Positions 9,994-21,700 of a DNA stretch of 47,438 bases are shown in pieces. Where the stretch lies: the IMG/VR virus record IMGVR_UViG_3300013093_000079, positions 1 through 47,438 of that record. One strand, given 5' to 3'. The DNA is from a virus. The notes beneath the pieces were generated by a model that saw only the letters and a list, made by a program, of their open reading frames with translations, was not told the DNA's origin and searched no databases. A program made the translations under genes and the position numbers. Position 1 is the first letter of the stretch, and every line of letters begins with the position of its first letter.

Positions 9994-11568
9994 GTGACCA
10001 CGCTGTTCCATTCCGATCGGGAGTTGTTCCCGTTTCAAGCCGAGCATGTAGAGCGTGCCCACGGACACGATTCCGTCCTAATGAACTGGGACTGCGGAGT
10101 CGGAAAGTCCGTGGGCGCCCTCGCTCTTGCCGCTCGCAAACTTGACGAGGGACTGATCGATCACGTCCTGCTGGTCTGCGAGAAGTCTAAGACCATCGCC
10201 GAAGAGTGGCCTGCCGAAATCGAACGGTACACCGATATCAAGTGGAAGCCCTATGCGGGCACCCCAGCCAAGCGCAAGAAGATTCGAGAGAATCTGCCCC
10301 CAATGCTGCTGGCTTCGTTTGACATCGTGAAGAACGACTGCGCCATCACCCATCGAACGGACAAAGGTCGTAAGTCCACCCCGATACCCGGTCCGCTTAC
10401 CGAAGCCTTAGCGGGCAAACGTGTGTTTGTGATTTACGACGAGACCTCTCGTTTGGCAAATCGAGGATCCGACACCCACCGCCATCATTCTCTTTTGCTC
10501 GAGGTGCTGCGTCAAACTCCGGGGACCTGCGTGCTCGCCCTAACAGCGACCCCAATGGAAAAAGACCCCGTTAGTTTCTACAACCTTACCCGCATTATGT
10601 CACCCGAGGCAACGTGCACGGTTCGAGAGTTTGAAGAAACTTATGTCAGCGCCTATGACACTTTCGGAAATCCGACCAGATTTCGCCATCTGAAGCCATC
10701 GGACTGCCCTCCCGGTACAGTGCCCCTACGGGACCGTATGGGGGCTCTCGTGCTACGCAAGCGCAAGTCTGACCCCGACGTCGTGGAGTATTTCCCCCTT
10801 CGTCGAGAGATGCCACCCACGATGGTCAAAATGGGCGAAATGCAAAGCATGTTCTATCAGACCGTGCAAGGCATGGCTCAGGGTCTAAGTGATTGGGAGG
10901 CCCGTCCGTTCACAACGGTCCTGCGTCAAATCGCCGGGAACCCCGAGGCACTTCTTCTATCTCAGGGCGAAATCTCAAAATCAATCGTTGACGTGGTCAC
11001 CCCGGCAGGAATCCTTGCCATCGGCTCCGCCAAGACCGAACGGATGCTGACGTGGACTCACGAGGTTGTTCGAGAGCAGGGCGCCCAAGCGGTCATCTTT
11101 ACGTTCTTTGGGCAATCAATGCTGCCCTTGTTGCAGCGGGACCTCGAAAACGCCGGATATACCGTCTCGATCAATCACGGGGGCCTGTCCGATACGGTCA
11201 AGAACCAGAACCAGCGAGACTTTCGGTCGGGCAAGACTGAGATTTTCCTAACTTCGGACGCAGGATCAAAGGGACTCAACCTTCCCGAGGCCACCTATCT
11301 TTTGCATTACGAGCGACCGCTTACTCACTCGAACTTTGTTCAACGGTCCGATCGTATCCACCGCATCAACTCCGTCCACGAGTCGGTCTACATCTATTCT
11401 TTCGTCACCCTCGAGACCATCGAGGAAGGACTCATGAACTTGAATCTCAGACGAAACGATTGGTCGGATACACTACTGGGTGACGACGAAGTGTCCAACG
11501 AGGACTTTCTGTCGGCAGAGGATCGACGCCTCCTCCTCAAGATTGGTAGGCGACAAGCGGGAGGTTAG
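9994..11568 (+). CDS. SNF2/superfamily 2 DEAD-box-type helicase
   Basis: A 524-residue protein with superfamily 2 helicase motifs in order: Q-motif-like FPFQAEHVERA (12-22), Walker A DCGVGKS (33-39), motif II as DETS (149-152, in place of DEAH), motif III TATP (184-187), motif V around SDAGSKGLNLPEA, and motif VI QRSDRIHR (450-457). The arrangement is that of SNF2-type DNA translocases and phage helicases, acting on double-stranded or branched DNA. The start is GTG, chosen because the promoter -10 lies six bases upstream and the protein begins just before the Q-motif. It heads a three-gene group ending at 12220, well apart from the main replication block, so a role in recombination, repair or transcription is as likely as replication. 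Confidence 0.85.
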   Translation: MTTLFHSDRELFPFQAEHVERAHGHDSVLMNWDCGVGKSVGALALAARKLDEGLIDHVLLVCEKSKTIAEEWPAEIERYTDIKWKPYAGTPAKRKKIRENLPPMLLASFDIVKNDCAITHRTDKGRKSTPIPGPLTEALAGKRVFVIYDETSRLANRGSDTHRHHSLLLEVLRQTPGTCVLALTATPMEKDPVSFYNLTRIMSPEATCTVREFEETYVSAYDTFGNPTRFRHLKPSDCPPGTVPLRDRMGALVLRKRKSDPDVVEYFPLRREMPPTMVKMGEMQSMFYQTVQGMAQGLSDWEARPFTTVLRQIAGNPEALLLSQGEISKSIVDVVTPAGILAIGSAKTERMLTWTHEVVREQGAQAVIFTFFGQSMLPLLQRDLENAGYTVSINHGGLSDTVKNQNQRDFRSGKTEIFLTSDAGSKGLNLPEATYLLHYERPLTHSNFVQRSDRIHRINSVHESVYIYSFVTLETIEEGLMNLNLRRNDWSDTLLGDDEVSNEDFLSAEDRRLLLKIGRRQAGG

Positions 11569-11570
11569 AA

Positions 11571-11912
11571 ATGTCCACCATCACGGATACTTTGAAGGCG
11601 CAAGTGCAAGACGCCATTGATCGTCACGCACTCAAGGATGACGCACAGTGGGACCTTGGCATGGTGGTTTTGCCACAGCAGCCCCCAGCGCACTTTTTGA
11701 CCATGCTCATCCCAGCAGCCATCCAACTGGGCGAGTGGCATCAGGCCGGAGCCATCATCGAGCAGGCTCACAAAGTCTCCGCAGAGGACATTGACGGGCT
11801 TGTGAACGGCATGTTCGAAACGCTTCGAGAAGAGCGCACCAAGTCACTCACCGAAGGCACCGCCAAGGTCGCAAAGCAAGAGGCGCCGCCTAAGGGATTG
11901 ATCGTCCCGTAA
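11571..11912 (+). CDS. Hypothetical protein
   Basis: A 113-residue protein I do not recognise. It is mainly helical by composition, without Cys clusters, signal peptide or transmembrane segment. The last 20 residues (about 95-113) are Lys/Glu/Pro-rich and probably disordered. The ATG follows GGGAGG and lies two bases after the helicase stop, so it is cotranscribed with the helicase. Its TAA overlaps the ATG of the next gene (TAATG). Confidence 0.6.
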   Translation: MSTITDTLKAQVQDAIDRHALKDDAQWDLGMVVLPQQPPAHFLTMLIPAAIQLGEWHQAGAIIEQAHKVSAEDIDGLVNGMFETLREERTKSLTEGTAKVAKQEAPPKGLIVP

Positions 11913-12220
11913 TGGCCGAGCACGTTAGGGTCTCCGAATGGGCTGCTCGAACTCTAAGTGCCGCCATTGATCGAATCATTCCCGACGAGGAATCGGTTCG
12001 ATGGGACGTCTCTGTCATTCCCAACGATCTAGAGCATCCTACGGATCCCTGCATCGCCATTTGGATGTCGATTGATGAACCCGATGGTCTCACCATGCAG
12101 TCCACCTACCTCGTTCCCCTCTTCGATCTTGCTGTAGAAGATATCTCGGACCACGTTCGCAAAGCGTGGGATGTCTGCGTCGTCGAACGCATGGAGATTG
12201 CCCTCAATCAGTCGAAGTGA
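11912..12220 (+). CDS. Hypothetical protein
   Basis: A 102-residue acidic protein of unknown family. The start overlaps the previous stop in TAATG, so translation is probably coupled. The sequence alternates short helices and strands (for example RWDVSVIPNDL, then CIAIWMSIDEP), suggesting a small compact alpha/beta domain. It is the last gene of the helicase group; a perfect hairpin follows 11 bases after its stop. Confidence 0.55.
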   Translation: MAEHVRVSEWAARTLSAAIDRIIPDEESVRWDVSVIPNDLEHPTDPCIAIWMSIDEPDGLTMQSTYLVPLFDLAVEDISDHVRKAWDVCVVERMEIALNQSK

Positions 12221-12231
12221 ATCTATCGGTC

Positions 12232-12251
12232 GAGAGGTGTGCTAACCTCTC
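12232..12251 (+). terminator. Perfect 7-bp hairpin after the helicase operon
   Basis: GAGAGGT (12232-12238), loop GTGCTA, ACCTCTC (12245-12251). It has no U-tract, only CCCC, so it would be a U-less terminator at best. Its right arm contains the TAACCT proposed as the -10 of the downstream RNA, so it could instead be an operator-like palindrome over that promoter. Confidence 0.4.
12243..12248 (+). promoter_or_regulatory. Candidate -10 box of the non-coding RNA
   Basis: The context GTGTGCTAACCT closely matches the context GTGTGCTAGGCT of the promoter at 12672, sharing GTGTGCTA and the TANNNT hexamer. By analogy with the other promoters, transcription would begin near 12255-12256. No convincing -35 is seen, which lowers confidence. 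Confidence 0.4.
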
Positions 12252-12255
12252 CCCT

Positions 12256-12651
12256 ACGCAAACAGACGCCGTGCAGGCCGGGTGAGGCCGAAGGAGAAAT
12301 CCTTCCGTCTCCGTCGGCTGGGCAACACAAGGACGATCGCCGGAGTCGTACCTTTGAGAACGACTGATCTCGTTCTCCACCTTCCATCGGAAGGTCTGGT
12401 GAAGGCCGTCCCCAGTCGGGCGAGTTGTTGAACTGTCGGAATTGTCTAGAGAATTAGTTCAGTGCCACCGCTACTGTCGAACTAAGGCTAACGCCTAAAA
12501 ACGACTGTTCCGGTGGCTTGCCACTCTAAATAGGATGGCAAAGGACTTTGACTAGAGAGTTACCGAGATAGAACAATGACTCCCCTGAACTGAAGGACTA
12601 TATTGACTACCTCGTCTCGCCACCCCTCTACCCAAAAACGGGTAGACTTTT
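12256..12651 (+). ncRNA. Candidate structured non-coding RNA, about 395 nt
   Basis: This gene-free stretch is densely foldable and ends in an intrinsic terminator. Stems I can pair by eye are: 12286-12297/12308-12319 (11 pairs and one A-G mismatch); 12329-12336/12346-12354 (8 bp, one bulge); 12356-12363/12370-12377 (8 bp); 12379-12385/12389-12395 (7 bp); 12396-12399/12412-12415; a long-range helix 12454-12462/12585-12593 (9 bp with one G-U) enclosing 12464-12470/12511-12517 (7 bp), 12473-12479/12502-12508, 12485-12488/12493-12496, 12518-12523/12536-12541 (6 bp) and 12557-12562/12577-12582. Only tiny ATG frames (five or six codons) occur. It matches no tmRNA, RNase P, tRNA or group I intron pattern I know. 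Function is unknown; a phage regulatory or structural RNA is inferred. Confidence 0.6.
12627..12651 (+). terminator. Intrinsic terminator of the non-coding RNA
   Basis: TCTACCC (12627-12633), loop AAAAAC, GGGTAGA (12640-12646), a perfect 7-bp stem, followed by CTTTT. This is a textbook Rho-independent terminator and fixes the 3' end of the RNA unit near 12651. Confidence 0.8.
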
Positions 12652-12677
12652 ACTGTGAAGTCAAAGTGTGCTAGGCT
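12649..12677 (+). promoter_or_regulatory. Leaderless promoter of the 12685 gene
   Basis: -35 TTTACT (12649-12654), exact 17-base spacer, -10 TAGGCT (12672-12677), then seven bases to the ATG at 12685. There is no ribosome binding site. The -35 overlaps the T-tract of the preceding terminator. Confidence 0.65.
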
Positions 12678-12684
12678 GCGTTCC

Positions 12685-12978
12685 ATGGCTACGACCAAGA
12701 AAACCCAACCCATCCCCGTCAACCATCGGGTATGGAAGGAACTGCACCCAACCGAGCACGGGGGATTCGCCCAAGGTGATGTTGTCAAAGTCACTGGCAC
12801 CACCAAGTCCCGCTGGACGTTCTGGTACGCCAACCTCGATCGAGATGGCAACCTCGATTCATATACGGTGTTCGGCGGAAACTCCCACGGGCAATCCGAG
12901 ACCAAGGAGTTTCGATCTTTCGCCCCCGAGCGTGTCCTCCCTATCGACGCTCCCCGTCGTCGCAAGACGGATTCCTAA
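12685..12978 (+). CDS. Small hypothetical protein
   Basis: A 97-residue protein starting MATTKKTQPIP. A longer reading from the GTG at 12655 exists, but it would begin upstream of the proposed transcription start, so ATG 12685 is chosen. The middle (GDVVKVTGTTKSRWTFWYANL) and end (KEFRSFAPERVLP) look like a small beta-barrel, ending in a basic tail. The short RSF.PERV ending recalls small actinophage proteins of unknown function, but I cannot assign a family with confidence. It is a single-gene unit: the next gene has its own strong promoter starting 17 bases later. Confidence 0.6.
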   Translation: MATTKKTQPIPVNHRVWKELHPTEHGGFAQGDVVKVTGTTKSRWTFWYANLDRDGNLDSYTVFGGNSHGQSETKEFRSFAPERVLPIDAPRRRKTDS

Positions 12979-12994
12979 AATCTTGACGAATGAC

Positions 12995-13023
12995 TTGACA
13001 GCGTCACAACCATCCGTTATGGT
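12995..13023 (+). promoter_or_regulatory. Strong leaderless promoter
   Basis: A consensus -35 TTGACA (12995-13000), exact 17-base spacer, -10 TATGGT (13018-13023), then seven bases (TCAAGGC) to ATG 13031. This is the best sigma-70-type promoter in the window. It predicts a transcript starting at or within a base or two of the ATG. Confidence 0.85.
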
Positions 13024-13030
13024 TCAAGGC

Positions 13031-15251: not shown

Positions 15252-15466
15252 AAAGACCTGTGAGAGTGCCCAATGGCACACCCACAACCTACCAATCCCC
15301 AAGCGGGATGGTGCTGACTGCTACCAGCACCGGAGAGCGATACAGGAAAAAGTAGGGGCGGTGTCTAACAGCATCATTTGAAGGGTGATACCCCTTCAAG
15401 CCCCAAGAAAGAACCCACAAGTGCAGTACGGGTTCCGACGCAAGGTGAGAAAGGAATCACCCAACT
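15252..15466 (+). promoter_or_regulatory. Intergenic region with three hairpins upstream of the Rpf-like gene
   Basis: No gene is visible. Perfect stems occur at 15310-15316/15325-15331 (GGTGCTG/CAGCACC, 8-base loop), 15378-15385/15392-15399 (TTGAAGGG/CCCTTCAA, 6-base loop) and 15411-15416/15430-15435 (GAACCC/GGGTTC, 13-base loop). The last ends about 12 bases before an AAAGGA ribosome binding site. The set could be a terminator plus a structured 5' leader controlling the secreted hydrolase. None has a U-tract, and no clear promoter is seen. Confidence 0.5.
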
Positions 15467-21583: not shown

Positions 21584-21665
21584 TTGCCCTTCTCTCGAGA
21601 GGGTGGCGTCACGGCGTTTGGTATGGGAGAGGTCCTGCCAACCGTCGTGGCGTCATCCCCTCGAC

Positions 21666-21694
21666 TTGCTTTGCCCACACCACATCACTAAGGT
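21666..21694 (+). promoter_or_regulatory. Leaderless promoter of the DNA polymerase gene
   Basis: -35 TTGCTT (21666-21671), exact 17-base spacer, -10 TAAGGT (21689-21694), six bases, ATG 21701. No ribosome binding site. It lies in the 117-base gap after the SSB-like gene, which otherwise contains a weak CCCT...AGGG hairpin (21587-21603). Confidence 0.65.
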
Positions 21695-21700
21695 CGCCCT

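Follow-up and report, generated by a model that had tools for sequence, protein, structure and literature searches.

Few large structured phage RNAs are known, and most of these have no established function. In the cited part of one account, the cluster A mycobacteriophages L5, D29, StarStuff and Kampy produce sequence-divergent right-end transcripts of about 500 bp that lack ORFs and arise from the early promoter Pleft (PMC5712189). The same part of that account describes the Pleft transcripts as the most abundant RNA in infection and as toxic to the host, and states that part of the region cannot be deleted (PMC5712189). Three highly transcribed intergenic RNAs, nc_1-3, are described in the cited section on Rhodococcus phage WC1 (PMC10986025). 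Here we analyze a locus of an uncultured phage of actinobacteria, in a 47-kb fragment (the window, meaning the whole stretch of 47,438 nucleotides that was analyzed). The locus suggests that uncultured actinobacterial phages have an RNA family that is so far undescribed.

A structured non-coding gap ahead of the replication genes

Tail and baseplate genes occupy 1-9 kb of the window, and genes for replication (DnaB-like helicase, DnaE) follow from 16 kb onward, with DnaB, primase and DnaE at 17-25 kb; at 38.4 kb there is a WhiB-like gene. The DnaE of the window is about 35% identical to that of the nearest cultured phages (Rhodococcus phage E3 and Gordonia and Mycobacterium phages) and 47-49% identical to that of the nearest IMG/VR contigs. 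As originally predicted, the 464-base gap at 12221-12684 holds no plausible gene: the upstream stop is at 12220, the next plausible start is at 12685, and ORFs of at least 60 aa that reach into the gap are only start-extended downstream frames or one minus-strand frame. Comparison with Rfam 15, which had been proposed as a check, gave no match at gathering score in the window; the families covered included GOLLD, ROOL, OLE, 6S, tmRNA, group I/II introns and RNase P. At E values up to 10, the window yielded only two chance-level Rfam matches, of 15.3 and 10.6 bits. ARAGORN detected no tRNA or tmRNA genes in the 47-kb window, which is itself a fragment.

The gap folds strongly. The minimum free energy (MFE) of 12250-12660 is -162.5 kcal/mol, compared with -123.1 ± 5.9 for shuffled sequences (z -6.65; 0/100 shuffles), and independent shuffle repeats of the plus strand gave z -6.41 and -5.99. 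The 5' portion (12262-12396) has a z of -2.97, and its two halves -3.4 and -3.5. In a GC-regressed scan, no other 400-nt stretch of the window was as structured as this one once GC had been corrected for. Coding controls (n = 27) had a mean z of -0.39 and a lowest value of -2.28, and nine further intergenic gaps in the window reached -3.41 at the lowest. We conclude that 12221-12684 is a real, strongly structured non-coding element, and probably a phage RNA of a family that is absent from Rfam and undescribed. Large structured phage non-coding RNAs are a known kind, and what would be new here is the family; the "new RNA class" of the original prediction is a candidate, short of a demonstrated class.

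Table 1. Features of the RNA locus in window coordinates, and fold scores of the same slot in related phages.
Feature	Positions	Strand	Basis
g11571, 113-aa uncharacterised protein; last-but-one gene of the upstream late/structural run	11571-11912	+	ORF; syntenic anchor
g11912, 102-aa uncharacterised protein; final gene ahead of the RNA	11912-12220	+	ORF
Probable promoter of the RNA, extended -10 TGTGC-TAACCT	12238-12248	+	sequence
Structured non-coding RNA, about 397 nt, putative start	12255-12651	+	fold z -5.99 to -6.65
Domain I, tandem hairpins 12276-12319, 12329-12354, 12356-12377 and 12379-12395	12276-12395	+	pair probabilities 0.66-1.0
Domain II, rod of 191 nt with a three-way junction at its end	12408-12598	+	-79.5 kcal/mol; z -8.23
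Apical hairpin with UAAC tetraloop and A-rich internal loop	12464-12517	+	z -7.16 for 12464-12541 (both apical hairpins together)
Second hairpin of the three-way junction	12518-12541	+	pair probability 0.95
Terminator-like hairpin TCTACCC/GGGTAGA (12627-12646), then CTTTT	12627-12651	+	pair probability 0.98
Promoter-like element of the next gene, TGTGC-TAGGCT	12667-12677	+	sequence
97-aa uncharacterised protein; first gene 3' of the RNA	12685-12978	+	weak match phrog_1338
Slot gaps of L164, L156, L153 and L155		+	z -5.3, -5.2, -4.4 and -4.3
Slot gaps of L151, L127, L161 and L149		+	z -3.1, -2.75, -2.7 and -2.6

Fold signals of lesser strength occur in two other gaps of the window. The gap at 15252-15466, upstream of a transglycosylase gene, has a z of -3.4 on the plus strand. 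The gap at 21584-21700, before the DnaE gene, has a z of -3.0 on the plus strand and no signal on the minus strand, and is possibly a terminator or leader.

The predicted fold of the RNA (Table 1) has about 18 helices with a pair probability above 0.7, in keeping with the ten or more stems first reported, and its start-to-terminator distance of about 397 nt agrees with the earlier estimate of about 395 nt. The rod is closed by GUCC/GGAC and includes a 9-bp helix (12422-12430/12574-12582) at probability 1.0. The original prediction had singled out another 9-bp helix, 12454-12462/12585-12593, as enclosing several sub-stems. These segments are indeed complementary (eight Watson-Crick pairs and one G-U), but the helix is absent from the MFE structure and from the ensemble. 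Imposing it on the fold carries a penalty of 10.9 kcal/mol; its competitors are 12422-12430/12574-12582 (p = 1.0) and 12456-12460/12543-12547. It could be an alternative state of the RNA; nothing supports it.

Strongly paired DNA without RNA function, such as a decayed inverted duplication or a mobile-element remnant, would also fold well. The rod can be viewed as two imperfectly complementary arms of about 55 nt, both strands beat their shuffles, and the window sequence has no homologue that would prove selection. We nevertheless regard this origin as improbable. The plus strand is clearly favoured over the minus strand, for which the whole region has a z of -3.2 to -4.0 and the rod -5.65, and four more separate hairpins lie outside the rod. 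The plus-strand fold contains 10 G-U pairs and zero A-C mismatches in symmetric internal loops, as expected for a maintained RNA rather than a DNA palindrome, with the reservation that folding the plus strand itself favours G-U. The same slot is also structured in eight relatives, one clade of which shows covariation.

The same slot in related phages

Relatives were gathered by primase- and helicase-based searches, which yielded about 30 phage contigs in which gene order is conserved. Within this set, blastn, nhmmer and covariance model R1 recovered no homologue of the window RNA. Model R1, built from the single sequence of the rod, matched only the window itself in G000-G015 and about 85 loci, and nhmmer and blastn on all loci, together with a DNA search of the genomes, gave short chance matches only. 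There was no blastn match to the window RNA at E up to 1 among 50,697 phage records, mycobacteriophages included, and a search of plasmids returned one 38-nt chance match only. Single-protein searches with g11912 and the helicase, plus one contig scan, found no relatives. The UAAC-hairpin module (inner helix, A-rich internal loop and UAAC loop) is common to the window and its closest relative, L149 (10912-10954). A descriptor scan of 6.6 Mb found this module only in the window, L149 and two others, and an exact-pattern scan of viral contigs found the hairpin at 18 loci in unrelated contexts; the module was noticed post hoc, so it is suggestive only.

Gene order allowed the slot itself to be compared. 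Homologues of g11571 lie directly 3' of an SNF2 helicase gene in relatives such as L148, L149, L200 and L155, and g11912 has homologues in L200 and L148, the latter at 31% over 55 aa (pairwise E 8e-6). The slot that follows SNF2 helicase, g11571 and g11912 is non-coding and significantly structured on the plus strand in 8 of the 11 relatives tested (Table 1), and the slot gaps of L182, L148 and L200 have no significant structure. In the close relatives L148 and L200 there is only a short unstructured gap at a comparable place (z -0.6 to -2.1). Extra small genes stand between anchors and gap in L155, L149 and L148/L200. The eight structured gaps do not represent eight independent events, because gap boundaries were set manually on ORF maps, several gaps were picked after a fold scan, and L153, L156 and L127 form one clade. 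Directly 3' of the structured gap in L149, the product of 11079-11543 resembles the 97-aa protein encoded downstream of the RNA (pairwise E 7e-5) and is a possible homologue of it.

Other candidates were rejected. The first gap at 1073-1800 in L125/L155 is a minus-strand ORF with an HExxH motif, and the structured gap is L125 2391-2905. The fold signal at L087 12651-12950 is a strong terminator hairpin after a transglycosylase gene. A match to the L20 leader (RF00558) in L149 scored 25.8 bits against a gathering score of 58.7, fell in an AT-rich stretch and was judged to be chance; the infC-rpmI-rplT operon is not listed 3' of it, and the L20 leader has no match in the window.

The neighbourhood of the slot varies among these phages. 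In nearly every relative, the SNF2 helicase and a DUF7242 gene are separated by a gene for a DinG/XPD-like helicase (656-730 aa, Helicase_C_2). This gene was not found at that slot or elsewhere in the 47-kb window, where 12221-13030 was compared with L125 6344-8314, L126 2772-4829, L087 2945-5014 and at least 10 others. Clusters of nine and four predicted tRNAs lie 3' of the SNF2 helicase in L165 (10862-12711) and L158 (12115-13622), respectively. The minus-strand ORF of L155 (10197-10838, the same as L125 1054-1695) encodes 213 aa with VVIHEVAHHLAG (HExxH) and has no Pfam match; its product is probably a zinc metalloprotease-like protein. In the three closest relatives, a small conserved minus-strand gene with a zinc-finger-like CxxCGHxRxxH motif adjoins the non-coding gap (L148 10170-10424, L149 10360-10710, L200 9728-9982); it was not seen in the window. 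Long spurious ORFs overlie genuine non-coding regions in these GC-rich phages (for example L153 10357-10647 and L148 10062-10478), which means that such RNAs would probably go unseen in automatic annotation.

One clade could be aligned. The alignment comprises three sequences of 450-500 nt, two of them close, from L153, L156 and L127, the last having the same gap as L087. Its consensus fold has an alifold z of -6.0 against column shuffles. Compensatory double changes occur in 24 of 125 pairs, compared with 12.4 ± 2.5 in shuffled alignments (0/500), for a structure derived from the same alignment, and a partner-sliding control gave at most 8 compensatory pairs. The compensatory changes extend over the whole length of the clade RNA and include its longest-range helix, which supports a conserved RNA of 450-500 nt in this clade. 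At its start is a conserved promoter, TTGACR with a -10 box TANNCT, whose spacer holds the palindrome ACCACTTGAGGTGGT (ACCACTTCAAGCGGT in L127), which appears operator-like. The region ends at a second promoter-like TGCTAA box ahead of the next gene. The window RNA occupies the same syntenic slot as the clade RNA. The nhmmer profile of the clade has no match in the window, and model R2, made from the 5' domain of the clade RNA, matches only the L153, L156 and L127 genomes and not the window. The clade RNA is thus a positional counterpart of the window RNA; the two may be one RNA that has diverged past recognition or separate RNAs that occupy a favoured site.

Transcription signals and proposed function

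We infer transcription of the window RNA from promoter- and terminator-like sequence. The -10 box TAACCT noted originally is present at 12243-12248 with an extended TGC, and is spanned by an inverted repeat, GAGAGGT...ACCTCTC (12232-12251); no -35 element is recognisable upstream of it. In the window, TGTGNTANNCT occurs only at this promoter and at 12667, the pair being suggestive only, since about 1.5 chance matches are expected from simple base counts. The L153 counterpart of the next gene's promoter-like element is TGTGCTAAGCT. At the 3' end there is a 7-bp stem followed by CTTTT, as reported, but calling it a "textbook" terminator was too strong because one was found where chance alone predicts 1.0 for a region this large.

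These signals bear on whether the element is instead a cis-acting boundary or 3' UTR, which would form the tail of the late-operon mRNA, stabilise its 3' end and halt transcription ahead of the replication genes, without a role as an RNA in its own right. The RNA does lie directly after g11912, at the switch from late to replication genes where GC skew changes, and its terminator-like hairpin precedes the next gene's own promoter-like element. Conservation of position and not of sequence is likewise expected if only structure is needed. Yet 400-500 nt with long-range helices far exceeds what a terminator or 3' end needs, and in the relatives the structured part is immediately preceded by a well-formed promoter with an operator-like palindrome. 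Compensatory changes in L153, L156 and L127 also run along the whole length, longest-range helix included. We consider a cis-acting role unlikely.

The explanation we prefer, and hold as a whole with moderate confidence, is a stand-alone RNA of about 400 nt with its own promoter that acts in trans in host takeover. Its computed part consists of structure, strand preference, gene absence, same-slot counterparts and covariation in one relative clade. The RNA would be made from the plus strand, end at the hairpin near 12651, and sit where tail and late genes meet replication genes. It would belong to a set of structured non-coding RNAs of this group of large actinobacterial myoviruses that keep their position while evolving fast. 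By analogy with the Pleft RNA of cluster A mycobacteriophages, which is made early, is stable and inhibits growth, it would most likely be expressed during infection and be both abundant and stable. Its rod and three-way-junction domain may bind a host or phage protein complex and so aid takeover. Transcription, ends, trans action, partner and effect are the proposed elements of this explanation. Against it stand a promoter without a -35 and a terminator at chance level, the lack of a homologue of the window RNA in the related contigs searched, and the unstructured comparable gaps of L148 and L200. The original idea of a stand-alone structured RNA is well supported: the fold is significant and favours one strand, the gap holds neither a gene nor an Rfam match, and the same slot has structured counterparts, one clade of which shows compensatory changes. 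The central long-range helix of that idea falls outside the predicted fold.

Throughout this group of large actinobacterial myoviruses, sequence and even detailed fold may turn over from clade to clade while the job of a promoter-driven takeover RNA, always at the late/early boundary, is conserved, a possibility that we raise tentatively. If true, the RNA would be a counterpart of rapidly evolving host-interaction proteins, perhaps functionally equivalent to the toxic Pleft RNAs.

GC skew shifts at the RNA (12-13 kb in the window, approximately): throughout the tail-gene block it is negative, at about -0.1, and in the replication block it is close to zero. Cumulative skew has no turning point; its slope just flattens. 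ColE1 RNA II and the transcript-primed T4 origins are precedents for priming by structured transcripts. An origin or primer RNA would suit an element that adjoins the replication module (DnaB, primase and DnaE) near a change of skew, and in L151 an RNase H gene lies directly 3' of the structured gap. A role in replication nonetheless has little probability in our judgement, given that cumulative skew does not turn and that RNase H is found there in only one of the relatives inspected.

Comparison with known RNAs

The rod-like domain of about 190 nt recalls 6S RNA, which is a single long hairpin with a large central bubble. The predicted window rod differs: its internal loops are small, it lacks the central bubble, its end is a three-way junction, and it has no Rfam match. 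GOLLD and ROOL are likewise large, elaborately folded phage or prophage RNAs whose function is not established (PMC12286853). They are often, not obligatorily, near tRNA islands, whereas the 47-kb window, a fragment, contains no tRNA; GOLLD often exceeds 800 nt compared with about 400 nt for the window RNA, which lacks an Rfam match.

The Pleft and WC1 RNAs come from unrelated phages, and the window RNA has no blastn match among phage records, mycobacteriophages included; their abundance and toxicity are measured, whereas the window RNA is predicted. The cited parts of both accounts describe no conserved secondary structure for them (PMC5712189, PMC10986025). On the evidence of those same parts, they share with the window RNA an actinobacteriophage source, a length of about 400-500 nt, the lack of an ORF and an intergenic position at a module edge (PMC5712189, PMC10986025). 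An own regulated promoter, putative in the window, and fast sequence divergence are further likenesses within the cited material (PMC5712189, PMC10986025). Taken with the toxic Pleft RNAs, the window RNA may reflect a general habit of actinophages, that of producing, at a module edge, a structured RNA directed at the host.
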